Source of the DNA: Halobellus clavatus | GTDB taxonomy: Archaea > Halobacteriota > Halobacteria > Halobacteriales > Haloferacaceae | Length of the DNA stretch: 64,000 nt | Assembly (NCBI RefSeq): GCF_900107195.1 | Contig: NZ_FNPB01000006.1 | Span: 62,001 to 126,000 of the forward strand | Direction of reading: 5' to 3' | Shown: piece after piece, positions 34,178 through 52,816 of the stretch | Layout of the letters: each line of letters starts with the position of its first letter | Position numbering within the stretch: the stretch's first letter is position 1 | Notes under the pieces: model-generated | Seen by the model: only the letters and a program-made list of their open reading frames with translations | Databases searched by the model: none | Told to the model about the DNA's origin: nothing | Program-made: the position numbers and the translations under genes

Positions 34178-34204
34178 CGGTATCGGAGAATTGTAATTAC
34201 CTAT

Positions 34205-34214
34205 CTTAAATATT
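34205..34214 (-). promoter_or_regulatory. TATA box of the acyl-CoA synthetase gene
   Basis: The minus strand reads AATATTTAAG, about 32 bases before the ATG at 34177. Confidence 0.6.
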
Positions 34215-34286
34215 CTGTCGGTGCGACGAGCAGAGATACCCCGGCGTCGGCCCGTACGAGATATTCGAACGGCCGTTCCACCGCGA

Positions 34287-35048
34287 TCACGGGGCGTACT
34301 GATAGTTCACCGAGACGATGTTGGCCGATTTCTGCACCTCGGCGGCGAGCGTCTCGCGGTAGTCCTCCTCGAGGAGTCGGTCGCTCGGACAGACGATGCC
34401 GATCGAGCCGACGACCCGATCTTCGATCTGGACCGGTGCGGCCACCGCCCCCATACCGACGACCTGCTCGTTTCGGTCGACGCCGTACCCCTGTTCACGG
34501 AGCGTCGCGAGTTCCTCGACGAGGTCGTCGGGATCCGTGATCGTGTACTCGGTCCGCGCGGTCAGTCCGTGGTTCGCGACGATCTGTTCGATCCTCTCTT
34601 CGGGGAGATGGGCTAAGATCACCTTCCCGCCGGCGTGCGTGTGAATCGGGGTCCGGAGACCAGGGTAGATCCCGAGCCGGAGCGAGTCAGCCCCGAACTC
34701 GGTGTGGAGGATGACGAACTCGCCCCGCTCCTCTACGTTGATGCTGGCCTGCTCGCCGGTCTCCTCGACCAGGCGTTCGAGTTCCGGTTTGGCCACGTGG
34801 AAGAGCCGGTTCCGGTACTTGACTTGCCCACCCAGTTCGAGGATCTGCAGACTGAGCCGGTAGCTACCGCTTTCGTTGACGACGTAGCCCATCGTGCGGA
34901 GGGTCCGGAGGTAGTCGTGGACGGTACTCTTCGGGAGGTCGAGCGTCTGTGCCAGTTCCGCGACACCGATCTGTTTCTCTCGTTTGAGCAGGTCCAGAAT
35001 CTCGAAGGCGCGTTGGATCGTCTTCAGCGGGGGTGGACCGTCTGTCAT
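34287..35048 (-). CDS. IclR-family transcriptional regulator
   Basis: The 253-residue protein has a winged helix (IGVAELAQTLDLPKSTVHDYLRTLRTMGY, about residues 22-50) and the IclR effector domain with GGKVILAHLPEERIEQI. Haloarchaeal IclR proteins of this length, such as those controlling sugar or aromatic pathways, act as local activators or repressors. It lies on the same strand, upstream of the acyl-CoA synthetase, with its own start at 35048. Control of the second transporter and synthetase is a reasonable inference. Confidence 0.92.
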   Translation of the reverse strand: MTDGPPPLKTIQRAFEILDLLKREKQIGVAELAQTLDLPKSTVHDYLRTLRTMGYVVNESGSYRLSLQILELGGQVKYRNRLFHVAKPELERLVEETGEQASINVEERGEFVILHTEFGADSLRLGIYPGLRTPIHTHAGGKVILAHLPEERIEQIVANHGLTARTEYTITDPDDLVEELATLREQGYGVDRNEQVVGMGAVAAPVQIEDRVVGSIGIVCPSDRLLEEDYRETLAAEVQKSANIVSVNYQYAP

Positions 35049-35693
35049 CCTTGTCGGGGCCTAGGACTCCGGCGACCTAAATACTGCGGTTATCTCGAAC
35101 GCACAGGTCAGCGGAATAATGCACGGCCCGCTCGACGCGAACCGGTCGTTCGCGGCGGCTGCGGAGTTATCTGCGCGGCCAATGCGACAAGGTACTGTCT
35201 CGGCGACGCCGAATTCGACGACGGCAGCGGTCCTGGCGCTGCCCAGTGGCGTTCGAGATACCCACAGGCACAGTTGAGCAACTCGAAGGCAATTCGATCG
35301 ACGCCTGACGGCAGTGTTGTCTCCGATCGGCTGAGTCGTCTCTGGATGCGACGCCCGGTTCGGCTCCTTCGCCGAGGTACTCCTTCCTACCCGATTCTCT
35401 TGTGCACGGGCAATAACGGAAGTACAACTGTTATCTCGGCATCGCGGCGATTGAGTCGACATCCTCCGGCGCTGTGTGACCGTCTGCAACGTGAGCGGTT
35501 CGGATTCGGTCGAGACTCGACTTCGCGGTGCGCTGTTTCGAGGATCACACAGTACTCCTGGTCTGACGTTGGCGTCGCGTGACGGTTACCCACACCGTCT
35601 GTTCGGAAATCTCGAATGGAGTCCGCAGCAGAAACGTACTCGCGACTGAGTAGCTACACAAAGTATATATGCACATAGACAGTTGTGACGGGT
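35049..35693. other. Gene-free stretch before the SMC-like gene (645 bases)
   Basis: No open frame here has haloarchaeal acidity or homology; the translated frames are Arg/Ser-rich. On the + strand the frame 34635-35582 stays open across most of the gap, which may reflect a decayed gene, but its product is not family-like. A promoter (TATATAT, 35664-35670) ends the stretch. No tandem repeat or strong hairpin was seen. Confidence 0.6.
35664..35670 (+). promoter_or_regulatory. TATA box of the SMC-like/rdfA operon
   Basis: TATATAT lies about 27 bases before the ATG at 35694 and about 18 before an in-frame GTG at 35685. The spacing favours the ATG. Confidence 0.6.
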
Positions 35694-37634
35694 ATGGCTG
35701 CCTCCGAGCAACTGACTGAGTCTGCTCATTTCACGGTCGAGAACATCGGTGGGATCGACCACACTGACGTAGAGATTCCTCGTGGCGTGACCGTTCTGAC
35801 AGGGAAGAATGCGACGAACCGGACCTCCTTCTTGCGCTCGATTATGTGTGCAATGGGGAGTCAGCGGGTTTCACTCAAAGGCGACGCCGATCAAGGGAAG
35901 GTAGAACTGACACTCGGTGAGAACACCTACGAGCGGACGGTGAAACGCGTCGGCGACGGCGTCCAGTTCGAGGGCGAACCGTACCTCGACGATCCGGACG
36001 TTGCCGATCTCTTCGCGTTCTTGCTGGAAACGAACAACGCTCGACAGGCGGCTGCCAGAGAGGAGCAGCTCCGAGACGTCATTATGCGGCCCGTCGACGT
36101 CGAGGCGATCCGCGACGAGATCCGACGTCTGGAAACGAAGAAGGGCGATATCAACGACGAACTGGCCCAGATCGAGTCGCGAAAGCGTGACCTACCGGAT
36201 CTCGAACGACAGCGCACCACGCTACAGGAGAAGATCGAAGACAAGCGAGAGGAACTCGCTGCGCTCGAAGCGGACATCGACGACAGCAGCCGAGACGTCG
36301 AGCAGGGCCGCAAAGAGCAGGCTGAACTCGAATCGAAACTGCAGGACCTCCGAGAGACTCGCTCGGAGCTCGAATCGGTCCGCCGGAAGATCGAGCGACA
36401 GAACGAGAGCATCTCCTCGCTCAAGCGGGAACGGAGCGAGTTGCAAGAGGACCTCGACGAACTCCCGGAGACGCCGATGGGCGATCACCGGGATCTGGAG
36501 GCCGAGATCGACCGTCTCCGGAGTCAGAGACAGGAACTGAACACCGAAATCAACGAGCTCCGGAGCCTGATCCAATACAACGAAGAGCGGCTCGAAGCAG
36601 AGGACTACGAACTGCTCCAGGACGGCGGGGGGGCGGCCACGGGCGATAACTCAGTGACCGATCAGCTGGTCGGCGACGACGACACGGTCGTCTGCTGGAC
36701 GTGTGGTTCCTCCGTCGGTCGCGACCAGATTGAATCCACGATCGAGCGACTGAAAGACCTCCGGAGCGAGAAGGTCGAAACGCTCAACGAAGTGAAGAGC
36801 GACCTCGACGACCGCAAGGAGGAACAGCGGGAGGCGACGCAAAAACAGCGTCGCCGCACGGAGATCGAGCGCAAACTCGACGACATCGACGACGAACTCG
36901 ACCGGCGGAACGAACAGGTCGAGGCGCTCAAAGAGACGCGCGAGTCGCTGACCGAAGACGTCGAATCCCTCGAATCAGAGGTCGACAGTCTCGAATCCGC
37001 GGACTTCGACGAGATCCTCTCGCTCCACAAGGAGGCCAATCAGCTCGAGTTCGAGATCGACAACCTCGAGTCCGAACTCGACGAGGTCACAGCCGAGATC
37101 GAAGCGATCGAGGACGACGTCGAACGCGCCGAAGAACTCCGGGAGGAGCGTTCGGAACTCGTCGACGAACTCACCGATCAGCGGACGAAGATCGATCAGA
37201 TCGAGGCCGAGGCGGTGGCGTCGTTTAACGAACATATGGAGTCGATCCTCGACCTGCTCGCCTACGAGAATATCGAACGGATCTGGATCGAGCGGATCGA
37301 AGCGAACGATGCCAGCGACGCGGAGACGCAGTTCGAGCTCCACATCGTCCGGACGACCGAGAACGGGGCGGCGTACGAGGACACGATCGACCACCTCTCT
37401 GAGAGCGAACGAGAGGTAACCGGGCTGATCTTCGCGCTGGCGGGGTATCTGGTCCACGACCTCCACGAGTCGGTGCCGTTTATGTTGCTGGACTCGCTGG
37501 AGGCGATCGACTCCGACCGGATCGCCGCCCTCGTCGAGTACTTCGCCGACTACGCCGACTTCCTCGTGGTGGCACTCCTGCCCGAGGACGCACAGGCCCT
37601 CGACGACGACTTCACGCGCGTGACGTCTATCTAA
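35694..37634 (+). CDS. Archaea-specific SMC-related protein (Rad50-like ATPase)
   Basis: This 646-residue protein has ATPase head halves at both ends and a long coiled coil (about 130-330 and 345-530). A hinge-like CWTC motif (C334, C337) resembles half of a Rad50 zinc hook. The head motifs are altered: the P-loop reads GKNATNRTS (G37-S45) with Arg at the usual Lys position, the signature region is LSESEREVTG (about 568), and the Walker B region is FMLLDSLEAID (D600). Family members are haloarchaeal and poorly understood. The gene directly precedes rdfA, as in Haloferax volcanii (recalled, not checked). The ATG at 35694 fits the promoter better than GTG 35685. Confidence 0.88.
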   Translation: MAASEQLTESAHFTVENIGGIDHTDVEIPRGVTVLTGKNATNRTSFLRSIMCAMGSQRVSLKGDADQGKVELTLGENTYERTVKRVGDGVQFEGEPYLDDPDVADLFAFLLETNNARQAAAREEQLRDVIMRPVDVEAIRDEIRRLETKKGDINDELAQIESRKRDLPDLERQRTTLQEKIEDKREELAALEADIDDSSRDVEQGRKEQAELESKLQDLRETRSELESVRRKIERQNESISSLKRERSELQEDLDELPETPMGDHRDLEAEIDRLRSQRQELNTEINELRSLIQYNEERLEAEDYELLQDGGGAATGDNSVTDQLVGDDDTVVCWTCGSSVGRDQIESTIERLKDLRSEKVETLNEVKSDLDDRKEEQREATQKQRRRTEIERKLDDIDDELDRRNEQVEALKETRESLTEDVESLESEVDSLESADFDEILSLHKEANQLEFEIDNLESELDEVTAEIEAIEDDVERAEELREERSELVDELTDQRTKIDQIEAEAVASFNEHMESILDLLAYENIERIWIERIEANDASDAETQFELHIVRTTENGAAYEDTIDHLSESEREVTGLIFALAGYLVHDLHESVPFMLLDSLEAIDSDRIAALVEYFADYADFLVVALLPEDAQALDDDFTRVTSI

Positions 37635-37661: not shown

Positions 37662-38279
37662 ATGGCTAACACGACCGACAGCAGACCCTCGAGCAAGGTC
37701 GCACGATTGATCGAAGAGTACGACCTCCGCGGACTCGGCGACGAACTGGAGGTGCGGTGGACGGGCGACGGCGTCGAGCGGACGAGCCTCCGGGACCTGG
37801 CGGACTACTTCAACAAACAACTTTTAGAGCAGGCACTCATCGATGCGGGGATGAGCGCTCTGGAGAGCGACGTCGACTCGACGTACCGGAACCTCACCGA
37901 AGACAACGTCAGTACCGGGGTCCGGACCGACACCCGCAACCGACTGGAGCAGAACGGGATCGACGTCGACGACCTGGAGTCAGATTTCGTCAGCTACCAG
38001 GCGATCCGATCGTTCCTGACGGAGTACCGGGACGCTGAGTACCGAAAGCTCTCGGATCAGGAGAAAGTCGAAAAGGACCTCCAGAGCATCCAGCGGCTGA
38101 TGACACGCACGCTCTCGGTCACCGAAGAGCGGATCGAGAAGCTCAGGCAGACCGAACGGATCGACGCGGGGGCGTTCGAGGTCTTGCTCGACCTGCAGGT
38201 GCTGTGTCAGGAGTGCGGGGAGCAGTACTCGGTGGCGGAGTTCCTCGACGAGCGCGGGTGTCAGTGCCAACGGGAGTGA
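37662..38279 (+). CDS. rdfA: Rod-determining factor RdfA
   Basis: The 205-residue protein begins MANTTDSRPSSKVARLIEEYDLRGLGDELE, with the KVxRLIxxYxLxGLGxxLExxW pattern of the RdfA family. The middle is helical, and the C-terminus has cysteines C182, C185, C200 and C202 that could bind zinc. RdfA is a haloarchaeal factor needed for rod-shaped cells in Haloferax volcanii. It starts 27 bases after the SMC-like gene and is almost certainly in its operon. Its mechanism is unknown. Its presence inside a catabolic island may mean that the module travels as a cassette. Confidence 0.85.
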   Translation: MANTTDSRPSSKVARLIEEYDLRGLGDELEVRWTGDGVERTSLRDLADYFNKQLLEQALIDAGMSALESDVDSTYRNLTEDNVSTGVRTDTRNRLEQNGIDVDDLESDFVSYQAIRSFLTEYRDAEYRKLSDQEKVEKDLQSIQRLMTRTLSVTEERIEKLRQTERIDAGAFEVLLDLQVLCQECGEQYSVAEFLDERGCQCQRE

Positions 38280-38295: not shown

Positions 38296-39054
38296 TCACG
38301 CCTGACTGAGTTTGAGTTCGAGTTCGTTCGCCGCACCCAGGACCCGATCGACGAGTCCGTTCTCCAGTTGTTGGTCGGTGAGCCGATTCGCTGGTCCGAC
38401 CACGCTGATCGCGCCGACGACGTCGCCGTCGACGATGATGGCCTTCCCTATCGCGCGGGCGCCCCTGACGTTCTCCTGATCGTTGAGCGCGTAGTTGCGT
38501 TCCCGAGTGGCCTCCAGTTCCTCGAAGAGAGCCTCCCGGGAGTCGACGGTCCGTGAGGTCTGCTGTTGGAGTCCTCGGTGGTCGAGGATTTGCTCGACAC
38601 GCTCTCTGGGGAGGTGCGCGAGGATACTCTTCCCAGAGGCGAGATAGTGTAGGTGAGACCGAGTGCCGATGCGAGCGTGCGTCTGAACCGCGTACTCGCC
38701 GAGCGCGTAATCCAGGTAGACGGCCTGTCCGTGTTCTTCGGTGACGAGCCAGACTGCCTCGCCCGTCGTATTCGCCAACTGTTCGATCGTCGATTTCCCT
38801 TCGCGTGCGATCGGATGCCGATTTCGCGCCCCGATGCCGTGATCCAACAGCCGCAGCCCGAGGTCGTACTTCCCGTTGACCTTGATCAGATATTCGAGGT
38901 CATACAGCGTCGAGAGGTAGTCGTGAGCGGTACTCGTCGGGACGTCCAGCGACTCTGTGATCTCGGTGGTTCCCATTGGACCGTGTTCCTGTAACAGTTC
39001 GATAATCTCGGAGACCCGCTGGATCGACCGCAACTTCACCGCATCGTTTGTCAT
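38296..39054 (-). CDS. IclR-family transcriptional regulator
   Basis: This 252-residue protein has a winged helix (MGTTEITESLDVPTSTAHDYLSTLYDLEY, about residues 27-55) and effector domain with SGKSILAHLPRERVEQIL. Longer in-frame extensions to 39237 are basic and not family-like, so the ATG at 39054 is used. Upstream lie a TATA-like element and three copies of a TTCCGA-N5-TCGGAA palindrome, the best operator candidates in the window. Autoregulation and control of the O-demethylase cluster beyond the gap are inferred. It is convergent with rdfA, 16 bases apart. Confidence 0.93.
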   Translation of the reverse strand: MTNDAVKLRSIQRVSEIIELLQEHGPMGTTEITESLDVPTSTAHDYLSTLYDLEYLIKVNGKYDLGLRLLDHGIGARNRHPIAREGKSTIEQLANTTGEAVWLVTEEHGQAVYLDYALGEYAVQTHARIGTRSHLHYLASGKSILAHLPRERVEQILDHRGLQQQTSRTVDSREALFEELEATRERNYALNDQENVRGARAIGKAIIVDGDVVGAISVVGPANRLTDQQLENGLVDRVLGAANELELKLSQA

Positions 39055-39118: not shown

Positions 39119-39139
39119 TATTCCGACAGTTTCGGAATA
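39119..39139. promoter_or_regulatory. Operator-like palindrome, copy 1
   Basis: Arms TATTCCGA and TCGGAATA flank CAGTT. The site lies just downstream of a minus-strand TATA-like box (39147-39153) and 65 bases before the IclR start, where a bound protein would sit over the transcription start. Confidence 0.65.
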
Positions 39140-39146
39140 CAATCAC

Positions 39147-39153
39147 ATATATA
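39147..39153 (-). promoter_or_regulatory. TATA-like box of the IclR gene
   Basis: ATATATA lies 7 bases upstream (minus-strand sense) of palindrome copy 1. It predicts a leader of about 65-70 bases for the IclR transcript. Confidence 0.45.
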
Positions 39154-39239
39154 GCTGTGCGTAATCCCGCATTTTCGATGGAAAACGGACCACGTCGTCG
39201 TGTGACGCGACTGAACACCCGTGCACGCGGTTCGCACTC

Positions 39240-39255
39240 TTCCGAAACTGTCGTA
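39240..39255. promoter_or_regulatory. Operator-like palindrome, copy 2 (imperfect)
   Basis: TTCCGA-AACTG-TCGTA matches the other two copies in inverted orientation, with one arm degraded. No promoter element is adjacent. Confidence 0.5.
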
Positions 39256-39373
39256 TCGAGATCAGCCGCAGGTTTACCCCACGACGGGTCACGGGTGTCC
39301 ACCGCTCGGATCGCATAACACAAGTACATATGTTAGGACTCTGCCGACATCGGGTATTTATCACAATCATTCA

Positions 39374-39399
39374 TATAAATAATTCCGAGACTGTCGGAA
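39374..39399 (+). promoter_or_regulatory. TATA box plus operator-like palindrome, copy 3
   Basis: TATAAATAA (39374-39382) is followed directly by TTCCGA-GACTG-TCGGAA (39383-39399). The layout repeats that of copy 1 but faces the + strand, towards the 3' end of the O-demethylase gene. No protein gene starts there, so a short or antisense transcript is possible. Confidence 0.5.
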
Positions 39400-39494: not shown

Positions 39495-40838
39495 TTATTC
39501 GCCCTTCCGTCGATCCGGCGAGTACGGGACTGTACCGACCGTCGCCGAGATCTCGGTCTGTTCGTGCCGCTCGACTTTCGGGTTCGGTGAGTCCTCGTCG
39601 CCCCACACGAGCGTGACCTCTGTGCCCGGGTCCGCGTGGTCGACGTCGATGCTGCACAGCGAGATGATGGTGCCGGCGTCGTACTCGTAGGACCGCGAGT
39701 GCGAGAGCCCGACCAACTCGCCGTCTTTCAGCACTTCGTCGTAGTTCGCGCGGCCCCACCCGATCCGTGGCAGTTCTATGAGCTTGTTACTCGGACCGTC
39801 GCGGAAGAGCGAGGCATACACGTCGATGACGTCCGCTTCGTCCCAGGCCAGCGAGACCAGCGTCCGGTCGGGGTCCTCGACCTTGGCCTCGAGCGCCTCA
39901 CGGCCGACGAAGTCGTGATCGAAGCTGATGAGTTTCTCGTATCCGAGTTCGATCGGGTCCATGTAGTAGTCGGTGATGTCCTCCGAGACGAAGCTCCCGT
40001 CGATGGAGTACGTGGCCTCCCGGCTGTCGGCGTCGAGCCACGCCCGGTATCCGGCCATCTCCTCGACGTCGTACAGGGGTGGGACGCCCGGCGGGACCCA
40101 GCCGAGTTTCACCGAGAGCGTGTGATAAGCCTTCGAGCCCAGCTGTCGGAGCCCGTGATCCTGGCCCGCCTCGACGATAGCCTCGCGGACGTGGTCTGCC
40201 TGCTCGAAGGGACCGATGAACTCGAAGCCGAACTCCGTGGACATCCCGTGACCCAATGCAATCGCCTCGACCCCCGCCAGTTCGACCGTATCGAAGCTGT
40301 AGAACGGAATGGAGTCGAGGTCGGCGTCTGTCACCTGTTCGAGCACGGGCCGCGCGTTGGGGCCCTGCACCTGGAACACGAACTTCTCGGGATCGCCCGC
40401 CTGCGCAGAGGTGCGGGGTTCGGTCTCGATTTCCACGTCGTACTCGCCGGTCTCGACGTTGTAGCGCACCCAGTTGGCCGCCAGCATCCCAGCGCTGTAG
40501 TACTCGTCCGCGGCGAGTTTGAGCATCGGGCCGTCGCCGATGATGTGGCCGTTGGGGTTGCACATCACCAGCTGTTTCGCCGTCCCGACCTCGTAGTGCT
40601 CGAAGCTATTGACGCTCAGGTCGCGAAGCAGCGTCTCCGCGTCAGGCCCGGTGACGCGGAGCGAGGTCATGTGATGCGAGAGATTTGCGAGGGAGACAGT
40701 CTCCGTCACCGCGCGCTGTTCGTCGAGCCAGTTCGTAATCTCGTTGGGGACGACGGGGAAGTTGTTCGTGTAGTCCCCACCCTTGCGGCGGAGCACCTCG
40801 ACTGGATCACCGGATGCTTGGATCTCCTCGGGGTCCAT
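39495..40838 (-). CDS. GcvT/LigM-like tetrahydrofolate-dependent O-demethylase
   Basis: The 447-residue protein is a GcvT-fold enzyme: an N-terminal folate-binding domain (VSLANLSHHMTSLRVTGPDAE, about 48-68) and a C-terminal beta-barrel (about 330-430). LigM and DesA of this length move the methyl group of vanillate, 3-O-methylgallate or syringate to tetrahydrofolate. The neighbours (amidohydrolase, aldehyde dehydrogenase, SDR, IclR) suit methoxy-aromatic breakdown. Other GcvT relatives, such as dimethylglycine or DMSP demethylases, are the main alternative. A TATA-like AT-rich stretch lies 20-30 bases upstream. Confidence 0.8.
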   Translation of the reverse strand: MDPEEIQASGDPVEVLRRKGGDYTNNFPVVPNEITNWLDEQRAVTETVSLANLSHHMTSLRVTGPDAETLLRDLSVNSFEHYEVGTAKQLVMCNPNGHIIGDGPMLKLAADEYYSAGMLAANWVRYNVETGEYDVEIETEPRTSAQAGDPEKFVFQVQGPNARPVLEQVTDADLDSIPFYSFDTVELAGVEAIALGHGMSTEFGFEFIGPFEQADHVREAIVEAGQDHGLRQLGSKAYHTLSVKLGWVPPGVPPLYDVEEMAGYRAWLDADSREATYSIDGSFVSEDITDYYMDPIELGYEKLISFDHDFVGREALEAKVEDPDRTLVSLAWDEADVIDVYASLFRDGPSNKLIELPRIGWGRANYDEVLKDGELVGLSHSRSYEYDAGTIISLCSIDVDHADPGTEVTLVWGDEDSPNPKVERHEQTEISATVGTVPYSPDRRKGE

Positions 40839-40929
40839 ACTGCGAAGGGCTCGACGAACATTAATAATAACAGTCTCCGCGGCAAATTATGAACCGCGAG
40901 CTGATCGCTCGACAGCGCAAACGCGGGCG

Positions 40930-41919
40930 TTACTCCAGGTCGAGCAGCCGCTTGATGTTCCCGGAGAAGATCTTTTCTCTGTCCGCTTCGGGAATATCGA
41001 GATCCTCGATGAGCGGGATGATCTCGGTCGCCCAGTACTGGCCCTTGTCGGGGCCGAACGGGTAGTCCGCGCTGTAGACGACGTTGTCGGCGCCGAAGAA
41101 TTCGAGCCCGCACTCCAGCGGGAACGACTCACCCTGGCTGCTGACCGCGGTGTCGCCGTAGATCCGATCGAAGTACGCCTCGAGGGGCTCGGAGAGATCG
41201 GCGATCGCGGGGTTCTGATACAGTTCGGGCTCCTCCGTCCGGGTCTGGTACCACGAGCGGATGCGGCCGACCTGGTAGGGGAACGATCCGCCGAGGTGAT
41301 GCGAGATGACCTCGATGTTCTCATAGCGGTCAAGGATCCCCGAGAAGATGAGTCGGGCGAGCGCGATGTTGGTGTCGAACGGCCACGCCAGCATCTTGTA
41401 GATCCACGTGTGAGAGGTGTCGTAGTCGTGCCAGTCTGCCAGTTGGGGATGGATCCACAGCGGGACGTCGAGATCGTCGATGGTGGCGTAGAACTCCTCG
41501 AAGTCGTCGTCGTCGAGCATCCGGCCGTTGATGTTCGAGAAGATCTGGATCCCGTGCATCCCGAGGTCCTCGATACAGCGCCGCGCCTCGTCGACGTACT
41601 CGTCAGTGAGGAACGGCACCGTGCCGACCGGAATGAACCGGTCGTGCTCCTCGCCGATCCTGGCGATTTCGTCGTTGGCGACGCGGGTCGCTTCGATCCC
41701 GTTGTCGGGGTCAATGTCCTGCCAGATCATCGGGGCCGCGAGGTCGATGACCTGCCGGTCGATCCCGTTCTTGTCCAAGTACTCGATACGCCCTTCCACG
41801 TCGGACATTCGAGGTGCGTTCCGGAGGCTGGAGAGTTCGTCCGTGGGATGGACTTTCTCGAGCGTGTCGAGAACCTCGTCGGTAATGATGTGCGAGGTCG
41901 CGTCTATGATCTCTGGCAT
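40930..41919 (-). CDS. Amidohydrolase-2 family decarboxylase-like protein
   Basis: The 329-residue TIM-barrel protein belongs to the ACMSD/LigW group of metal-dependent decarboxylases. Ligand-type residues are visible in PLWIHPQL, VISHHLGGSFPY and SADYPFG. The N-terminal HxH metal motif, normally D-x-H-x-H, reads DATSH, so the first His is Thr. The second family copy in this window (57608-58585) has the same loss. It is encoded just upstream of the O-demethylase, so decarboxylation of a demethylated or ring-cleaved aromatic acid is a fair inference. The ATG at 41919 gives the family start MPEIIDA. Confidence 0.85.
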   Translation of the reverse strand: MPEIIDATSHIITDEVLDTLEKVHPTDELSSLRNAPRMSDVEGRIEYLDKNGIDRQVIDLAAPMIWQDIDPDNGIEATRVANDEIARIGEEHDRFIPVGTVPFLTDEYVDEARRCIEDLGMHGIQIFSNINGRMLDDDDFEEFYATIDDLDVPLWIHPQLADWHDYDTSHTWIYKMLAWPFDTNIALARLIFSGILDRYENIEVISHHLGGSFPYQVGRIRSWYQTRTEEPELYQNPAIADLSEPLEAYFDRIYGDTAVSSQGESFPLECGLEFFGADNVVYSADYPFGPDKGQYWATEIIPLIEDLDIPEADREKIFSGNIKRLLDLE

Positions 41920-42039
41920 CGTTTCGCACTTTGGTACACCGTTACTTAAAACATACTGTGGATCAGGTAGGTTCCCCCGTTCGAGACGCCCGCCAGCCCG
42001 GGAGTAAAGGCTAATAGCCGCTCTCCAGTACCGTCGGGT

Positions 42040-43482
42040 ATGTCCGAAGGCCGAGTGCCACACCGAGGGATGTTCGTCGACGGCGATTACCACCGGCGAA
42101 ACGACACGTTCCGGGTCACCGATCCCTCGACTGGCCGACCGGTCGCCGTGGTCACGAGCGCCGGGCCTGACGGCGTCGACACCGCACTCGACGCGGCCGT
42201 CGCGGCCCAATCCGAGTGGGCGGCGATCGATCCCATCGAGCGCGGTCGGATCCTGCGCCAGGTCGCCCGGGAGCTCAAACGTCACGTCGACGAACTGGCC
42301 GAACTCGCGACGCGAGCCATCGGCCGGCCGCTCGGTCAGTCGAAAGGCCTCGTGGACAGCGCCATCGACTACGTCGACTACTACGCCGGGATGACAGACA
42401 AAGTGGAGGGCGAGAGCCTCCCCGTTGGCCAGACGAACCAGGCGTTCACCCGGCGGGAGCCGATCGGGGTCAGCGCCCAGATTGTCCCCTGGAACGCGCC
42501 GGTGCTCCTCACGTTCCGTGGGGTCGCACCGGCGCTGGCCGCCGGCAACGCGGTCGTCGTCAAGCCCTCCCCGTTCGCACCCCGGGTGATCCTCACACTC
42601 GCCGAGATCGCCAGCGAGGCGGGCCTGCCCGACGGCCTGTTCAACGTGGTCCCCGGGCGGGTCGAGACCAGTCAGGCGCTGACGACGGACGATCGCGTCG
42701 ACCAGCTCACCTTCACCGGGTCGGTCTCGACGGGGCAGCTCGTCGGCAAGACCGCGATCGACCGAGTCGTGCCCACGGTCTTAGAACTCGGTGGAAAGAG
42801 CCCCGCGGTCGTCTTCGAAGACGCTCCCCTCGACGACGCCGTCGACGGCGCGATGCAGGCGATGACGATGATCAACGGCCAGGTCTGCTTCGCCACCACC
42901 CGTGTCTTCGTCCACGAGGACGTCTACGACGAGTTCACACGACGGTACGTCGACGCCGTCGACGCCCTCGAACTCGGGGCCGGCATCGACGACCCGGACC
43001 TCGGTCCGGTGATCTCCGAAGATGCGCTCGCGGAGATCGATCAGTACGTCCAAGCAGCGATCGACGACGGAGCGACAGTGCTCACCGGGGGCCGGCCGGC
43101 CGACCGCGAGGGCACCTTCTACGAACCGACGATCATCGAAGGGGCCGACGACGACGCGGCTATCTCCTGTGAGGAGGTCTTCGGTCCGGTGATTAGCCTC
43201 TACGAATTCGCAGACGAGAAAGAGGCGATCCGGCGGGCGAACGACACCGACTACGGCCTCTACGCGACGGTGTGGACGAACACGCTGGACCGCGCTCATC
43301 GAGTCGCCAACGGTATCGAGGCGGGCAGCGTGATGGTGAATCAGTACGCCGGGTCCCGGCCCCAGACGCCGTTCGGCGGCTACAACAAGAGCGGGCTTGG
43401 ACGCGAGAAGGGAATGCAGGCGGTCGATCACTACACGGAGCTGAAGACGATCAACGTAGAGATCGGCTCCGTCGAGGAGTAG
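42040..43482 (+). CDS. NAD(P)-dependent aldehyde dehydrogenase
   Basis: The 480-residue enzyme has the catalytic Glu249 in ELGGKSP and nucleophilic Cys283 in GQVCFATTR, with the TGSVSTGQLVGK cofactor loop before them. ALDH enzymes oxidise aldehydes to acids. Next to an O-demethylase, vanillin- or benzaldehyde-type aldehydes or muconic semialdehydes are likely substrates. It is divergent from the amidohydrolase gene, sharing a 120-base promoter region, and is followed 66 bases later by an SDR gene on the same strand. Confidence 0.93.
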   Translation: MSEGRVPHRGMFVDGDYHRRNDTFRVTDPSTGRPVAVVTSAGPDGVDTALDAAVAAQSEWAAIDPIERGRILRQVARELKRHVDELAELATRAIGRPLGQSKGLVDSAIDYVDYYAGMTDKVEGESLPVGQTNQAFTRREPIGVSAQIVPWNAPVLLTFRGVAPALAAGNAVVVKPSPFAPRVILTLAEIASEAGLPDGLFNVVPGRVETSQALTTDDRVDQLTFTGSVSTGQLVGKTAIDRVVPTVLELGGKSPAVVFEDAPLDDAVDGAMQAMTMINGQVCFATTRVFVHEDVYDEFTRRYVDAVDALELGAGIDDPDLGPVISEDALAEIDQYVQAAIDDGATVLTGGRPADREGTFYEPTIIEGADDDAAISCEEVFGPVISLYEFADEKEAIRRANDTDYGLYATVWTNTLDRAHRVANGIEAGSVMVNQYAGSRPQTPFGGYNKSGLGREKGMQAVDHYTELKTINVEIGSVEE

Positions 43483-43548
43483 CGGTCGGTCCCACGCGCT
43501 CCCGGGCGACGCCAATGGTTATAGGCTGGGAAGGCGTTCTCCCACCTG

Positions 43549-44277
43549 ATGTTCACAGACCAGACCGCGGTCGTGACCGGTGCTGCGACGGGGATCGGAC
43601 GAGCCATCGCCGAGCGTCTCGCAAGCGACGGCGCGCACGTGATCGTCGTCGACGTCGCCGACGGATCTGAGACGGTCCAGCAGATCGAAGCCGCCGGCGG
43701 GAGCGCCGCCTACCGCGAGGCCGACGTCACCGACGAGGACGCGATGGCGGCCGTGTTCGATGGCACTGACGTCGATATCCTGGTCAACAACGCGGCGTAC
43801 TACGCACCGCTCGTTACCGACAAGAAGCGCTTCGACCAGATCAGCGCCGACGAGTGGGACACCGTGATGGCAGTCAACGCCAAGGGGCCGTTTCTCGCGG
43901 CAAAGCACGCACTCGAGGATCTCTCCGGTGGCGGTCGCATCGTCAACATCTCCTCCTCGGTGGTGACGATGGGCGTCCCGGGGTTCCTGCACTACGTCGC
44001 CTCGAAGGGGGCCGTGCTCTCGATGACGCGAGCGATGGCGGCCGAGGTGGGTGACCTGGACGTGCGAGTGAATGCGGTGCTGCCGGGCTACACGTGGTCG
44101 GAGGCCTCACAGCAGGCCGGCGAGGCATACTTAGCAGACTACGTCGAGAAACAGGCGCTCGATCGTGTGGTGAAACCGGACGACATCGCGGGCGTCGTGA
44201 CCTTCCTCGCCGGCCCCGACAGCAGCGCGATGACGGGACAGGCGATCAACGCCGACCCCGGACTCTCCTACTACTGA
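43549..44277 (+). CDS. Short-chain dehydrogenase/reductase
   Basis: The 242-residue Rossmann enzyme has TGAATGIG near residue 8, the NNAAYY segment, and the catalytic Tyr149-x3-Lys153 (YVASK) preceded by Ser in NISSSV. It interconverts alcohols and ketones or dihydrodiols and catechols with NAD(P). It has its own TATA-like GGTTATAGG about 28 bases before the ATG. In this setting, a benzylic alcohol or dihydrodiol dehydrogenase is possible, but the substrate is not determined by sequence. Confidence 0.92.
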   Translation: MFTDQTAVVTGAATGIGRAIAERLASDGAHVIVVDVADGSETVQQIEAAGGSAAYREADVTDEDAMAAVFDGTDVDILVNNAAYYAPLVTDKKRFDQISADEWDTVMAVNAKGPFLAAKHALEDLSGGGRIVNISSSVVTMGVPGFLHYVASKGAVLSMTRAMAAEVGDLDVRVNAVLPGYTWSEASQQAGEAYLADYVEKQALDRVVKPDDIAGVVTFLAGPDSSAMTGQAINADPGLSYY

Positions 44278-44292
44278 GGGGCGGATCCGCCA

Positions 44293-45201
44293 TCAACTCA
44301 GGAGCGTCACGCCGATGGCTCCGCCGACCGCGACGAGCGCCCCGAGGACGAGCCGCGGGGTGATCCGTTCGAGGTCGTCGCTCACGAAGAAGACGGAGAG
44401 GAAGATCACCACGAGCGGGCTTGACTGCACCAGCGGCACGACGAGCGAGACCGGCTCTACCTCCAGCGCGCCGTAGTACCCGAGCAGGAAGACGGTGTTC
44501 GCGAGACCTGCACCCACGAGCCACGGGAGTTCCTCGCGCTCGACCTCGCGGAGATCCGGGATCCCTTGCGTCCACCACAGATACACGAGGAAGCCGAGCC
44601 CGGCGCTGACGGTCTTCACTGTCAGCCCCGTCAGGACTGCTGCACCCTCGGCGAATCCGAGTTTGGCGAACGTCGGTTCGATCCCATAGAAGAACGCCGC
44701 GGCGAAGGGGAACGCGAGGCCGACGTACCCCGTATTGCCCGCCGTCTGGCCGCCCCGACCGTGTTCGTAGGTGATGATCGCGATCCCGGCGACGATGGCG
44801 ATCATCGAGACCAAGTGGCCGGGCGAGACGACCTCGCCGAGCACCACCACAGCCACCAGCGAGGCGTGCAGCGGCTGTGAGGCCTTGATCGGTTCTGCCC
44901 GGCTGGAGCCGATCCGTTTGATCCCCTCGAAGTGCATCGCTCGCCCGACCATCGTCCCCAAGAGCCCCGCCGCGGTGAAGGCGGCGAGCGAGCGCAGCGT
45001 GAGTTCCTGCAGCGGTGAGCCGAGGACGAACGCCGCTGGCACGAGGGCGAGGATATTCACCGCCAGGACGATCACGAGCGCGTCAGATGAGTCGCTGGTG
45101 ATCGTCCCGTAACGGATCGACAGCGACTGCACCGCGAGCGCGCACGCCCCGAGCACCGCAAGGAGGACGCCGACGCTGAACACGTCACCGACGGGCGTCA
45201 T
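44293..45201 (-). CDS. EamA/DMT-family membrane transporter
   Basis: The 302-residue protein has ten predicted membrane spans in two EamA repeats (about residues 8-140 and 155-300), the second ending RLVLGALVAVGGAIGVTLLS. DMT-family proteins export or import metabolites, often amino acids or aromatic compounds. It is convergent with the SDR gene, 16 bases apart. Its relation to the catabolic genes is positional only. Confidence 0.87.
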   Translation of the reverse strand: MTPVGDVFSVGVLLAVLGACALAVQSLSIRYGTITSDSSDALVIVLAVNILALVPAAFVLGSPLQELTLRSLAAFTAAGLLGTMVGRAMHFEGIKRIGSSRAEPIKASQPLHASLVAVVVLGEVVSPGHLVSMIAIVAGIAIITYEHGRGGQTAGNTGYVGLAFPFAAAFFYGIEPTFAKLGFAEGAAVLTGLTVKTVSAGLGFLVYLWWTQGIPDLREVEREELPWLVGAGLANTVFLLGYYGALEVEPVSLVVPLVQSSPLVVIFLSVFFVSDDLERITPRLVLGALVAVGGAIGVTLLS

Positions 45202-45321: not shown

Positions 45322-46083
45322 TCAGCGCCACTTCATCAGTCGGTGTTCAGCAGCGCGAAGGCCTTCCTGAGCGAGGATGATGAGTAACACCGGGATGAGA
45401 ACCCACCCGAGAAGCAGGTCGACGCGTTGCTGCTGGAACCAGTAGTTGACCATATAGCCGACACCCGAGCCCGCACCGAACACCTCCGCGATGAAGAGCA
45501 CCTTCCAGGAGACGACCAGACCCCAGTACATCGACGGGAAGAGGTACTCAAGCACCTGCGGCAAGAGGATGTCGCGATACTTCTGCAGGGTACTCGCCCC
45601 GAAGAAGTCCGCCATTTCGGTGATCTCGGGGTCGAGTTCCTGGGTCCCCTCCCACATATTCAGGATGACGAAGGGGACGCCGACGATCACGACCGTTAGC
45701 ACCGGGACCCACTCGGAGATGCCGATCGCGATGATGAGCGCGAACGCGACGGCGATGGCCGGGACGGACAGGCCGAGAACGATCCACGACCGAAGGAACG
45801 CTTCGGCGTCCTCGCGGAGGCCCATCGCGGTGCCGACGATCGTGCCGACGACGACCGAGATCGCGAAGCCCGCCAACAGCCGGCGGAAGGTGTCCGTGAC
45901 ATTTCCCCGATACGTGCCGAACTGTGGGTCCGAGATCACCGTCTGCGTGGCGGTGAGCAACTCCGGGATACTGGGAAACACGTAGTAGGCGAAGAACTGC
46001 GAGGCGACCTGCCAGGCGGCCAGTAGCACGACGGCCACGAGGGCCTTCTTACCGAGGTTTCTATCAGTAATATAAGATTTCAT
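45322..46083 (-). CDS. ABC transporter permease (SsuC/TauC type)
   Basis: The 253-residue protein has about six membrane spans and the permease EAA loop, MADFFGASTLQKYRDILLPQ near residue 165. It belongs to the nitrate/sulfonate/taurine-type importer group, which includes phthalate transporters. It follows the binding-protein gene on the minus strand with an 18-base gap. A second permease of the same family is encoded on the + strand next to the ATPase, so the channel may be a heterodimer. Confidence 0.9.
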   Translation of the reverse strand: MKSYITDRNLGKKALVAVVLLAAWQVASQFFAYYVFPSIPELLTATQTVISDPQFGTYRGNVTDTFRRLLAGFAISVVVGTIVGTAMGLREDAEAFLRSWIVLGLSVPAIAVAFALIIAIGISEWVPVLTVVIVGVPFVILNMWEGTQELDPEITEMADFFGASTLQKYRDILLPQVLEYLFPSMYWGLVVSWKVLFIAEVFGAGSGVGYMVNYWFQQQRVDLLLGWVLIPVLLIILAQEGLRAAEHRLMKWR

Positions 46084-46101
46084 TAGAACGATGGCCAGCC
46101 G

Positions 46102-47172
46102 CTACAGCGGATTCCGGAGCAGTTCGTCCTGGGCGGGTACTTCGTCGACGAACTCGTACTGGTTCATCAGTTCGATGAACTGCCAGGTGGCGTCCCGGTA
46201 GCCCGAGTCCCACCCGCCGCGGAAGACCTGCTCGTCGTTGGCCCACTCGTCGACCACGTCGACCTTCGCTTGGGTGTCGACCGAGGCGGTCTCGCCGTAC
46301 TCCTCGAGGATGGAGACGGTGTTCTCGCGCCAGTGGGTGGCGGCTGCCTCTGCGCCGCGAAGGAGTCCCGCTGCGGTTTCGGTGTTGTTGTCGTACCAGT
46401 CGGAGTACGTGAACCACGCGGTGAGCGGCAGCGTGTACCCCGCGCGCTCGCGCCACATCGCGTTCAGTTGCGAGAGCCGACGGTAGGTATCCGGCTGCGC
46501 CTCCATCGTGATGGTGAGGCCGCTGACGTTGATCACCCCATCGACCTGTTCGTCCGTGAGCAGGCCGAGGAGCGCCGGCGGCGCCGCCGTCGTCGTCTCG
46601 AAGTCCTGACGCATTCGGAGGCCCGATTCCTCCGCGACGACCGCCTGGAACGCTTGAACGGTCGAGGACCCCCACGACCAGACGCCGATCCGCTGGCCTT
46701 CGAGGTCGCTGATCGACATATAATCGCTGCTTTCCCGCGTGTACAGCGCGTTGATGCTCTGGAGGCACCCGTTCCAGCCGAACGTTACGAGGTCTTCGCC
46801 CTTCAGGTAGTTACTCACGTAGGGCATCATCGACACCATATTGACGTCGACTTCACCACCGGTGAGCGACTGGACCTGTGCGCCGAAGGGGGCGTAGTCG
46901 ACTGTCAGGTCGATGCCCTCGTCCTCGAAGACGCCGTCGTCCGTGGCGGCCTCGTACATCGGGTAGTGAATCGTCCCTTCGGGGAGGAGGATGCGGACCG
47001 AGGTCATCCCACCGTCGGCTGACCCCATCGTCGTGGCCGTGGAATCGCTCTCGGTCGCCGTCTCCGTGCTCTCGTCACCGTTTCCGTCGCCGCCTCCACT
47101 ACATCCGGCGAGTCCGGCAACGCCGACCGCACCCGTGCCGGTAATAAAACGCCTTCTGGTAACACGATGCAT
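46102..47172 (-). CDS. ABC transporter substrate-binding lipoprotein (SsuA/NMT1 type)
   Basis: The 356-residue protein has a Tat signal (TRRRFITGTG, residues 5-14) and lipobox LAGC, then a Gly/Asp/Ser/Thr linker. The NMT1-like domain includes ITISDLEGQRIGVW-type text (SISDLEGQRIGVWSWGSS). Such proteins bind sulfonates, pyrimidine precursors or aromatic acids such as phthalate. A 24-codon upstream extension is rejected, because the ATG at 47172 is preceded by a TATA box and a palindrome at normal spacing. The ligand is inferred to be an organic acid from the surrounding genes. Confidence 0.9.
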   Translation of the reverse strand: MHRVTRRRFITGTGAVGVAGLAGCSGGGDGNGDESTETATESDSTATTMGSADGGMTSVRILLPEGTIHYPMYEAATDDGVFEDEGIDLTVDYAPFGAQVQSLTGGEVDVNMVSMMPYVSNYLKGEDLVTFGWNGCLQSINALYTRESSDYMSISDLEGQRIGVWSWGSSTVQAFQAVVAEESGLRMRQDFETTTAAPPALLGLLTDEQVDGVINVSGLTITMEAQPDTYRRLSQLNAMWRERAGYTLPLTAWFTYSDWYDNNTETAAGLLRGAEAAATHWRENTVSILEEYGETASVDTQAKVDVVDEWANDEQVFRGGWDSGYRDATWQFIELMNQYEFVDEVPAQDELLRNPL

Positions 47173-47181
47173 ACATCGACC

Positions 47182-47206
47182 ACCATAGTCTATGGTAATA
47201 AAAATA
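47182..47206 (-). promoter_or_regulatory. TATA box and perfect palindrome before the SsuA-like gene
   Basis: ACCATAG-T-CTATGGT (47182-47196) is a perfect palindrome with 7-base arms. It abuts a TATA element (minus-strand TATTTTTATTA, 47196-47206) and ends 10 bases before the ATG at 47172. A protein bound there would block initiation, so it is a strong operator candidate. Confidence 0.6.
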
Positions 47207-47394
47207 CCGGGAACGTTTATGATAGATCCATCGGCTCTCGACACTTCTGGACCTTGGCCCGCGGCACCGGACGGGAGTCGCCCGGGGCTATGGAAAGATT
47301 ATTATGATCCTCACGTCTTTCGCTAACTGTTCACACGATCTATGTTCCGAGACCATCCCCGCACAGCTATTCTCCTGCGGAACCCCGGAGGGCG

Positions 47395-48195
47395 ATGATG
47401 ATGGCAGCCGAAGAACGATCTGTATCGTCCGAGACCACGGGCGAGACCCTCGAACTCCGTGACATCGTCAAGCACTATCCCAGGCCCGGGCAGGGTCGCA
47501 TCCAGGTGCTCGACGAAGTCGATCTCGACGTCGAATCCGGCGCGTTCGTCTCGCTGCTCGGTCCCTCTGGCTGCGGAAAGACCACGCTGATGAACGTCAT
47601 CTCGGGGCTCGTCGAACCCACCGAGGGGACGATGCGGCGCGGCGGCCGCGACGTCACCCCCAACGATCTCTCCCTCGGCTATATCTTTCAGGAGCCGCGC
47701 CTGCTGGACTGGAAAACCGTCGCAGGCAACATCGAGTTCGCGCTCGAAGCCCGGGACGTGCCGGAATCGGAGTGGGACGAGCGGGTAACCCGGTACCTAG
47801 AGATGGTCAATCTCGACACGGAGGGCGATAACTATCCCACACGCCTCTCCGGGGGGATGAAACAGCGGGTGGCCATCGCACGAGCGCTCGCGATCGAACC
47901 CGAGATCATCCTGATGGACGAACCGTTCAGTAGTCTCGACGAGATCACGGCCCGCGACCTCCGGCAGGAGTTACTCGACATCTGGCAGCGGGAGCAGAAG
48001 ACGATCCTGTTCGTCACTCACGACATCAACGAGGCCGTGTTCCTCTCGGATTACCTCTATATGATGAACTCCAACGGAAAGATGTTCGCCCGGCGGAATA
48101 TCGGAATCGACCGGCCGCGCCAGTACGACGACCCCGAAATCGCCCAGCGCGAGGCGGAACTGTACAGAGAGTTCCACGAGCACGTGGTGGAGTGA
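47395..48195 (+). CDS. ABC transporter ATP-binding protein (SsuB/TauB type)
   Basis: The 266-residue ATPase has Walker A GPSGCGKTT near residue 54, signature LSGGMKQRVAIARAL and Walker B IILMDEPFSSLDE, all canonical for nitrate/sulfonate/taurine importers. Three ATG codons in a row (47395, 47398, 47401) may serve as start. The stop is followed after one base by the ATG of the permease gene (48197), so the two are co-translated. It is divergent from the binding-protein gene across about 220 bases. Confidence 0.93.
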   Translation: MMMAAEERSVSSETTGETLELRDIVKHYPRPGQGRIQVLDEVDLDVESGAFVSLLGPSGCGKTTLMNVISGLVEPTEGTMRRGGRDVTPNDLSLGYIFQEPRLLDWKTVAGNIEFALEARDVPESEWDERVTRYLEMVNLDTEGDNYPTRLSGGMKQRVAIARALAIEPEIILMDEPFSSLDEITARDLRQELLDIWQREQKTILFVTHDINEAVFLSDYLYMMNSNGKMFARRNIGIDRPRQYDDPEIAQREAELYREFHEHVVE

Positions 48196-48196
48196 G

Positions 48197-48985
48197 ATGA
48201 ACCGAACGCAGCGATTCGGGTACGGCGTGGCGTCGATCGCGACCCTTCTCGCCATCTGGTACGCCGGCGGGATCACCTACCCGGAGGTCCTCCCGGGACT
48301 TCCGGAGACGGTGGATTCGCTCGTTACGGTGTTGACGACGCCGGGACCGTACGATCATATGTTCTACTTCCACGTCTGGAAGACGATCGAGATGCTCTTC
48401 GCGTCACTGATCGTCTCGATGATCCTGGGAACACTTCTGGGGATCGCGCTCGGGCGGAGCGAAACGCTCGAGAGCACCATCTCGACGTGGATCTACGCCT
48501 GGCTCGCGATCCCATCGCTCGTGATCGTCTTCATCTCGGCCATCTGGATCGGGTTCAACGCGAGCAGCGGGTTCTTCGCGGTCCCAGTCGTCATCACACC
48601 CTTCGTCGCACTGAATATGTGGGAGGGCGCACGGAACCTCGATTCGGACCTCGCCGAGATGGCGGAATTCTTCGGCGCGGATCGGGTGCAGATGTTCACC
48701 GACATCATCGTCCCCCAACTCGCACCGTTCCTGTTCGCGAGCTTCCGCTCAGCCCTCTCGATCGGGTGGAAGATCACGCTACTCGTCGAGGCGTTCCTCC
48801 TCACCCGCGGTGTCGGATTTATGTTCCGACGGTACTTCGATCAGTACGACCTCCCGACGATGATGAGTTGGCTCATCATCTTCGTGGTCTTCCTGATCGT
48901 CGTCGAATACGGCGTCCTCGCACCCCTCCACGAGCGCGTGATGCGGTGGCGACCCGACGCCGAAGGCGTCCGCGTGACTGAGTGA
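48197..48985 (+). CDS. ABC transporter permease (SsuC/TauC type), second copy
   Basis: The 262-residue protein has about six membrane spans and the EAA loop MAEFFGADRVQMFTDIIVPQ near residue 155. It is related to, but distinct from, the permease at 45322-46083, so this importer likely uses two different channel subunits. It ends the ATPase-permease operon. A perfect inverted repeat follows 36 bases after its stop. Confidence 0.9.
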   Translation: MNRTQRFGYGVASIATLLAIWYAGGITYPEVLPGLPETVDSLVTVLTTPGPYDHMFYFHVWKTIEMLFASLIVSMILGTLLGIALGRSETLESTISTWIYAWLAIPSLVIVFISAIWIGFNASSGFFAVPVVITPFVALNMWEGARNLDSDLAEMAEFFGADRVQMFTDIIVPQLAPFLFASFRSALSIGWKITLLVEAFLLTRGVGFMFRRYFDQYDLPTMMSWLIIFVVFLIVVEYGVLAPLHERVMRWRPDAEGVRVTE

Positions 48986-49540: not shown

Positions 49541-49544
49541 ATGC
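49511..49544 (+). promoter_or_regulatory. TATA-like box and palindrome over the start of the AOR gene
   Basis: TTTTTGTA (49511-49518) lies about 26 bases before the ATG at 49541. GCATAC-GTATA-GTATGC (49528-49544) is a perfect inverted repeat that overlaps the start codon. Together they resemble a repressed leaderless promoter. Confidence 0.45.
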
Positions 49545-51217: not shown

Positions 51218-51539
51218 TCGGGATCGAGCGGGGAGTGAGAGCTGCCATACTTCGACCGTTGACGTCGGTTAGCGGGTGACAGACCAGACAATTTCGAGAT
51301 GGTGTACTCTCCGGCTGCGGCCGTTTGAACGGACGGGATTTCGAGGTACTCGGTAGCCTCTTTTTCACCGAAGTCGATTACTCACCATTCGAGCCGCCGA
51401 AAGATCACCGGGTATCCCAACGCGCCCCCGGGACGGCAATCACCAGCGAACACACCGGAGTCCAGTCGCTCCGTCCCGGGATCGGTGGGTCAGGACCGTC
51501 TGATTGGGCCGGAGTTCGCGCCGAAGCCCCCCATCGGCC
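51218..51539. other. Gene-free gap between convergent genes (322 bases)
   Basis: The gap separates the ends of the AOR gene and the hydratase gene. No acidic open frame, repeat or strong hairpin was seen apart from a CTTTTT run near 51360 that could end the AOR transcript. Confidence 0.55.
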
Positions 51540-52429: not shown

Positions 52430-52816
52430 ATGGACGTCATCCACAGCGCGATCTGGATATCGGACATCGAGGAGACGCTTGACTTCTACGTCGGGGCCCT
52501 CGGACTCGAGAAGACCAACGAGTTCGTCGGCGGCGACGGCGCGACGAACCTCTACGTGCGTGGCGATGGTGCGGCCGAGATCCAGTTCAAGCACAAGGAG
52601 GACCACGACCTCGGCGAGGCCACTCGGAGTCGGTTCGACCACCTGGCACTCGAGGTTGACGACACCGACGCGGAGGTCGAACGACTCCAAGAAGAGACGG
52701 ACACGGAACTGCTCCGTGGCCCGCTCGATTCGACCGGGGCGAGCGCCCGTGTGGCGTTCATCACCGACCCCGACGGTCACATGATCGAACTGGTCGAACC
52801 GCGCGACGACCTGTAA
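52430..52816 (+). CDS. VOC-superfamily (glyoxalase/extradiol-dioxygenase-like) protein
   Basis: The 128-residue single-module protein begins MDVIHSAIWISDIEETLDFYVGALGLE. It has metal-ligand-type residues His4 (VIHSAIW), His in RFDHLALEV and Glu in GHMIELVE. The VOC fold includes glyoxalase I, epimerases and extradiol ring-cleavage dioxygenases. A typical extradiol enzyme has two modules, so this is more likely a lyase or epimerase, but it is the only VOC gene in an otherwise dioxygenase-less cluster. It is encoded between oppositely oriented pathway genes. Confidence 0.85.
   Translation: MDVIHSAIWISDIEETLDFYVGALGLEKTNEFVGGDGATNLYVRGDGAAEIQFKHKEDHDLGEATRSRFDHLALEVDDTDAEVERLQEETDTELLRGPLDSTGASARVAFITDPDGHMIELVEPRDDL

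Follow-up and report, generated by a model that had tools for sequence, protein, structure and literature searches.

A LigM/DesA-family protein in a putative meta-cleavage island of the haloarchaeon Halobellus clavatus

In Sphingobium SYK-6, the vanillate/3-O-methylgallate O-demethylase LigM is coupled to a methylenetetrahydrofolate reductase (MTHFR) that is reversed (PMC12585457), while in the Opa and Pra routes of meta-cleavage, ACMSD-like decarboxylases (OpaD and PraH) act between extradiol cleavage and the semialdehyde dehydrogenase (PMC6362003). Here we compare these systems with a locus of Halobellus clavatus, located in a stretch of 64,000 nucleotides (contig NZ_FNPB01000006.1, positions 62,001 to 126,000, hereafter the window), and focus on a gene encoding a homologue of LigM and of the syringate O-demethylase DesA. 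Our best explanation, to which we assign a probability of roughly 0.7, is that this gene encodes a folate-dependent demethylase of methoxylated aromatics which acts within a meta-cleavage island.

Archaeal methoxydotrophy has been described for Methermicoccus and Archaeoglobus, which use the Mto system (PMC8630106, PMC8359953). By our proposal, the Halobellus protein would likewise remove aryl methoxy groups in an archaeon, but it belongs to a different family, with a folate-dependent GcvT fold, and is encoded beside genes of O2-dependent ring cleavage. The Mto type of O-demethylation is reportedly corrinoid-dependent and anaerobic, and the archaea known to remove aryl methoxy groups are anaerobes that use corrinoid methyltransferases. 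An O2-compatible route in salt-lake archaea that depends on folate would, if true, be a second archaeal solution. In a literature search on haloarchaeal O-demethylases and vanillate, on Halobellus and lignin and on archaeal O-demethylation, in which few subscription papers were covered, no LigM-type archaeal system was found. A LigM-family gene is present in 22 of 391 sampled haloarchaeal genomes, and in a phylum-wide sample the matches are confined to the window's own order, in line with a preliminary description of the window in which the trait was considered unfamiliar among haloarchaea.

The LigM-like protein and its folate context

39495-40838, minus strand: LigM/DesA-family tetrahydrofolate (THF)-dependent O-demethylase homologue, 447 amino acids (open reading frame, NCBIfam, PDB phmmer, alignment and tree)

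The protein matches the Pfam family GCV_T (E 3.5e-39), and its highest NCBIfam scores are those for DesA (NF047633, 425.1 bits) and LigM (NF047885, 399.8 bits), as compared to 88 bits for GcvT, 78 for trimethylamine N-oxide (TMAO) demethylase, 71 for sarcosine oxidase alpha and 52 for DmdA. In a phmmer comparison with the PDB, crystallised LigM (5x1i/5tl4) matches it end to end, at residues 6-444 (E 6e-95), whereas dimethylglycine oxidase and dehydrogenase chains reach E 6e-8 or weaker. Judged by these comparisons, the product is a full-length LigM/DesA-family protein and not a glycine, dimethylglycine or dimethylsulfoniopropionate (DMSP) enzyme. The preliminary assignment to a LigM/GcvT-like O-demethylase family is thereby upheld, and a grouping with dimethylglycine or DMSP demethylases, named there as the contrary outcome, was not seen.

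In a maximum-likelihood tree of 57 rows, whose bacterial rows come from plasmids only, the protein stands apart from H. clavatus's own GcvT rows and falls into a 10-row haloarchaeal clade (support of 100 in the Shimodaira-Hasegawa-like approximate likelihood ratio test, SH-aLRT) comprising Halobellus, Halarchaeum rubridurum and two further paralogues of H. captivus. LigM and the DesA-type plasmid rows form a separate group of 12 rows, which includes one haloarchaeal row (support 99). In terms of its sequence, the protein is thus a representative of a distinct haloarchaeal subfamily of the LigM/DesA family, with substrates apparently unlike those of LigM and DesA. Equivalents of His60 and Tyr247, which we take to be the catalytic pair of LigM, are retained as H56 and Y238 in the alignment to the LigM sequence.

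The family is furthermore linked to folate metabolism. MTHFR is encoded in 102 of the 391 haloarchaeal genomes, being present in 21/22 genomes with and 81/369 without a LigM-family gene (Fisher p=1.8e-12), and, when the own genus is left out, in 11/12 versus 78/366 (p=7e-7). In nine genomes, 230-700 bp separate the MTHFR gene from a LigM gene, in two others the distance is at most 2.2 kb, and an MTHFR gene of H. clavatus is located directly beside a LigM paralogue on C18. By adjacency and co-occurrence, MTHFR is therefore tied to the LigM family in haloarchaea as in the LigM-S6MTHFR module of SYK-6 (PMC12585457); if our proposal is true, this would help to explain why MTHFR occurs only patchily among haloarchaea. 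The H. clavatus genome also encodes FolD twice, and formate-THF ligase (Fhs), formate dehydrogenase, FolC/FolP and a gene resembling catechol 2,3-dioxygenase (C23O) are found together on C18, so that the folate one-carbon (C1) enzymes whose presence the preliminary description had proposed to check are indeed encoded. Clusters in other haloarchaeal families combine LigM, MTHFR, PurU and a C23O-like gene, in one case with FolD too, and equivalent LigM-MTHFR-PurU-FolD sets are carried by Sphingobium and Rhodococcus plasmids. The resemblance to LigM of SYK-6 thus comprises full-length homology, both catalytic positions and the presence of MTHFR, FolD and PurU beside family members.

In L070 and L071, two loci from other haloarchaeal families, genes for FolD and for PabA/PabB-like, FolC/FolP-like and formate-dehydrogenase-like proteins occur, in one or both and with some names given by eye, near LigM, MTHFR, PurU and a C23O-like gene. 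These gene sets can be read as a cassette for folate supply and C1 oxidation.

The surrounding island and the proposed route

The gene is part of an island of about 21 kb (38296-59439) with an IclR gene at each end, of which the four-gene set singled out in the preliminary description forms one end only. Its further features are the following:

38296-39054, minus strand: IclR-family regulator, downstream of ligM on the same strand (Pfam IclR_C, 2e-33)
40930-41919, minus strand: ACMSD-superfamily amidohydrolase, decarboxylase-like, 329 amino acids (Pfam Amidohydro_2, 4e-24)
42040-43482, plus strand: aldehyde dehydrogenase (ALDH), generic, betaine-aldehyde- or muconic-semialdehyde-like, 480 amino acids (Pfam Aldedh, 2e-160)
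43549-44277, plus strand: short-chain dehydrogenase/reductase (SDR), 242 amino acids (Pfam adh_short_C2, 3e-56), island-conserved
44293-45201, minus strand: EamA-family transporter (Pfam), island-conserved
45322-48985, both strands: NMT1/SsuABC-type ATP-binding cassette (ABC) importer (Pfam, NCBIfam), with the next four genes
45322-46083, minus strand: ABC permease
about 46102-47244, minus strand: ABC substrate-binding protein
47395-48195, plus strand: ABC ATPase
48197-48985, plus strand: ABC permease
49541-51217, plus strand: aldehyde:ferredoxin oxidoreductase family protein (Pfam), island-conserved
51218-51539, no strand: gap, the site of a C23O-like gene in six sister genomes, no remnant found
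51540-52316, minus strand: 2-oxopent-4-enoate hydratase family, DmpE-like (260 bits, under the cut-off)
52430-52816, plus strand: small VOC/glyoxalase-like protein
52834-53880, minus strand: 4-hydroxy-2-oxovalerate aldolase (TIGR03217, over the cut-off)
53873-54817, minus strand: acylating acetaldehyde dehydrogenase (TIGR03215, over the cut-off)
54976-56460, minus strand: ALDH nearest benzaldehyde/4-hydroxybenzaldehyde dehydrogenases among solved structures (446 bits)
56655-57440, plus strand: oxalocrotonate decarboxylase/hydratase family, DmpH/DmpE-like
57608-58585, minus strand: second ACMSD-type amidohydrolase, 42% identical to 40930-41919
58672-59439, minus strand: second IclR regulator, island end

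The LigM-like, decarboxylase-like, ALDH and SDR genes are present and linked as first described, and all six other Halobellus genomes with an orthologue share the order IclR-LigM-amidohydrolase-ALDH and have an SDR nearby. As far as the fetched stretches extend, the island of these six begins with IclR, LigM and amidohydrolase, followed by ALDH, a thiamine pyrophosphate (TPP) enzyme, an ABC importer, a universal stress protein, SDR and EamA. It continues with a second ABC importer, a second TPP enzyme in 2/6 genomes, a transporter and the aldehyde:ferredoxin oxidoreductase, and ends with a C23O-like enzyme, hydratase, VOC protein, aldolase, acetaldehyde dehydrogenase and ALDH, then a hydratase/decarboxylase, amidohydrolase and IclR. 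In Halarchaeum rubridurum, which belongs to another family, LigM, amidohydrolase, ALDH, SDR, an NMT1-type importer and IclR also occur together, in rearranged order. Because the gene order is kept in six Halobellus genomes and the same set recurs in Halarchaeum, the linkage exceeds chance. The amidohydrolase gene at 40930-41919, linked to ligM in both genera, lies 91 bp upstream of it and is probably co-transcribed with it, and the ALDH gene at 42040-43482 is divergent from the amidohydrolase gene.

The gene context suggests that a catechol-type ring undergoes meta-cleavage. The C23O of the sister islands scores 247 bits on TIGR03211 (cut-off 320), with catechol and homoprotocatechuate 2,3-dioxygenases as PDB matches, and the meta-cleavage lower pathway is retained in the H. 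clavatus island. Among solved structures, the TPP enzymes of the sister islands are closest to benzoylformate decarboxylases, and on a plasmid of Thermomicrobium roseum a TPP enzyme is paired with a LigM homologue. ACMSD, LigW and gamma-resorcylate decarboxylase chains each match the amidohydrolase at 40930-41919 over most of its length (about E 1e-25); NCBIfam gave no specific name for either island amidohydrolase. Taken as a whole, the island resembles the Opa/Pra routes (PMC6362003) in uniting an ACMSD-like decarboxylase, an extradiol dioxygenase, ALDH, hydratases, aldolase and acetaldehyde dehydrogenase. It differs from them in the altered N-terminal metal motif of the Halobellus amidohydrolases and in the tautomerase, which is not in the H. 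clavatus island and whose sole family match lies on C17. The small VOC protein (52430-52816) was rejected as a ring-cleaving enzyme, being glyoxalase-like.

In the mechanism that we propose, the ABC and EamA transporters would import a small methoxylated aromatic, the presumed substrate, and its side chains would be trimmed to the aryl aldehyde and acid by the SDR and ALDHs, joined in the relatives by the benzoylformate-decarboxylase-like TPP enzymes. Carboxyl groups would be stripped by the ACMSD-type amidohydrolases, presumably in this order, and the haloarchaeal LigM/DesA-subfamily enzyme, using Tyr and His as in LigM to judge from the conserved residues, would move the methyl group to THF and yield a catechol. 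The ring would then be opened by an extradiol dioxygenase, which in H. clavatus would presumably be encoded elsewhere, and the product converted to pyruvate and acetyl-CoA by the hydratases, aldolase and acetaldehyde dehydrogenase. The 5-methyl-THF would be oxidised via MTHFR, presumably running in this direction, and FolD, after which Fhs or PurU would release the C1 unit as formate for oxidation to CO2 by formate dehydrogenase. A broader scheme, which we put forward more tentatively and at less than even odds, holds that aerobic haloarchaea carry out a corrinoid-free, folate-dependent catabolism of methoxylated aromatics. Genomes would hold as many as eight LigM-type paralogues, the majority served by an IclR regulator and importer of their own, with a folate C1 oxidation pathway and meta-cleavage enzymes in common, and the window clade would act on a carboxylate-free substrate, such as guaiacol or a methoxycatechol, once decarboxylation has taken place. 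If true, lignin-derived or algal methoxy-phenolics would serve as food in brines.

Points against the proposal and alternative explanations

Several observations weigh against this explanation. The MTHFR-LigM co-occurrence tests ignore phylogeny apart from the one genus left out, and, unlike in the SYK-6 module, the LigM genes that adjoin MTHFR are other paralogues and not the window copy. Predicted structural models were too poor for use, with a mean predicted local distance difference test score (pLDDT) of 46 for the LigM-like protein and 66 for the amidohydrolase. Betaine aldehyde dehydrogenases (BADH) are the closest PDB matches of the ALDH at 42040-43482 (363 bits), and the usual N-terminal HxH (or E-x-H) reads T-S-H in the amidohydrolase at 40930-41919, the remaining His and Asp positions being conserved; with Thr at the first metal-binding His, its decarboxylase activity is uncertain. 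The window was found to lack any remnant of the island C23O, of the TPP enzymes and of the substrate-binding protein on the TPP side, and the four C23O-like genes elsewhere in the genome all score under the TIGR03211 cut-off; the one most similar to the island type lies on C20 and is about 50% identical. In addition, the LigM-like protein remains under both curated equivalog cut-offs (580 bits for LigM NF047885, 800 bits for DesA NF047633), and the Halobellus and Halarchaeum rows of its clade have a hydrophobic residue (Met, Leu or Val) at the position of LigM Arg122.

The missing genes bear on a possibility that we consider unlikely, and that could hold alongside the best explanation where the sister genomes are concerned: the H. 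clavatus island may be a decaying remnant in which the LigM cluster has ceased to support growth and survives by chance or because it serves in detoxification. Besides the C23O and TPP enzymes, whose absence means that the local route in H. clavatus may be broken, the second ABC importer and a transporter of the sister islands are missing, and the best match in the genome to a sister TPP enzyme is only 31% identical. Against decay, the island genes still present have open reading frames, most of them sharing about 80-94% identity with the sister copies, and the genome retains its four other C23O-like genes.

The scores and the Arg122 position bear instead on a functional equivalent of LigM or DesA, in which the ALDH would make vanillate from vanillin and the LigM-like enzyme would give protocatechuate for ring cleavage. 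DesA and LigM are the top-scoring families, the PDB match to LigM is full-length and a benzaldehyde-dehydrogenase-like ALDH is found in the wider island, but neither equivalog cut-off is reached. The cut-offs are exceeded by bacterial plasmid homologues used as controls (L079 and L085 for LigM; L078 and L083 for DesA, the latter pair at 835-898 bits and with Arg122 retained), and two further haloarchaeal paralogues that were scored exceed neither. Scores above those of other families and below the cut-offs make the protein a member of the LigM/DesA family, not demonstrated as either enzyme. Arg122, which presumably contacts the substrate carboxylate in LigM, is present there and in 8/10 bacterial plasmid rows; its loop reads SAGML-AANW in the H. 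clavatus protein versus VGRAPAANW in LigM. With His60 and Tyr247 kept and Arg122 replaced, we read the protein as conserved in its chemistry and different from LigM in substrate recognition. From LigM it further differs in being archaeal, in IclR control and in its partners, which are an amidohydrolase, ALDH, SDR and a VOC-type extradiol pathway rather than LigAB. DesA is its best-scoring NCBIfam model, but the score is below the DesA cut-off, and the DesA-type plasmid rows have the Arg122 that the H. clavatus protein lacks. Neither an intradiol (PF00775) nor a LigB-type (PF02900) dioxygenase was found in the H. clavatus genome, which makes protocatechuate 3,4- or 4,5-cleavage unlikely, and this route was rejected; protocatechuate may alternatively be opened by 2,3-cleavage of the PraA type. 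Vanillin dehydrogenase was also dropped as a name for the adjacent ALDH, which is of a generic type, the benzaldehyde-dehydrogenase-like ALDH of the PDB comparison being 11 kb away. We therefore consider a LigM/DesA equivalent improbable, and of the lignin-monomer-like pathway suggested in the preliminary description, the aromatic-catabolic context stands, whereas vanillin to vanillate to protocatechuate with 3,4-/4,5-cleavage does not.

Improbable to the same degree is a non-aromatic methyl donor to folate (a methylated amine, betaine, sulfonium or methyl ester), with ALDH and SDR in that pathway: the BADH-like ALDH, a GcvT superfamily that includes DmdA, dimethylglycine oxidase and TMAO demethylase, and three other own or sister paralogues without His60 and Tyr247 would suit it, but LigM/DesA scores lie more than 300 bits above those of DmdA, GcvT and TMAO demethylase, the window protein keeps both residues, synteny is with extradiol dioxygenase and meta-cleavage genes, and the ALDH is under the BADH cut-offs of NCBIfam.

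Regulation, paralogues and further loci of the window

Between ligM and iclR, at 39121-39399, a motif scan found three operator-like sites of the form TTCCGAAACTGTCGGAA:

39121-39137, no strand: TTCCGAAACTGTCGGAA site, 0 mismatches
39240-39256, no strand: TTCCGAAACTGTCGGAA site, 2 mismatches
39383-39399, no strand: TTCCGAAACTGTCGGAA site, 1 mismatch

All 5 matches to the motif in the 64 kb (0.18 expected) belong to these three sites, and related TCCGAnAnTnTCGG sites occur at two positions of the orthologous intergenic region in six other genomes. Since ligM and iclR share the minus strand, the sites precede iclR and follow ligM in the direction of transcription, suggesting autoregulation of iclR through putative operators; that they drive ligM was rejected from the gene orientation. 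The strong operators noted earlier beside an IclR gene are thus confirmed, though not as part of a ligM promoter.

Eight LigM-family members are encoded in the H. clavatus genome, most of which have an IclR gene and an ABC importer in their vicinity. His60 and Tyr247 are both absent from the divergent paralogues L017:9336-10676 and L018:6135-7463 of H. clavatus and L073:1050-2315 of H. captivus, which probably use a different methyl donor. In H. captivus, an additional LigM-family gene (L089:4186-5649, 40% identical) is inserted in the importer section of the island, and the neighbours of paralogues of a second type (L072:6376-7836 and L073:7746-9260) are a Rieske ferredoxin-like gene and an amidohydrolase of another kind, about 380 amino acids long.

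Outside the island, an AMP-forming ligase and an IclR gene (window 32507-35048) keep their place next to the LigM island in a number of sister genomes. A protein at 37662-38279, which presumably resembles the haloarchaeal rod-determining factor RdfA, is conserved beside the island together with a coiled-coil ATPase (35685-37634). A second aromatic locus of the window contains a gentisate 1,2-dioxygenase-like cupin (4987-6063; 200 bits, cut-off 442), near which 4HBT thioesterase, AMP-ligase and LIV-type ABC genes are located.

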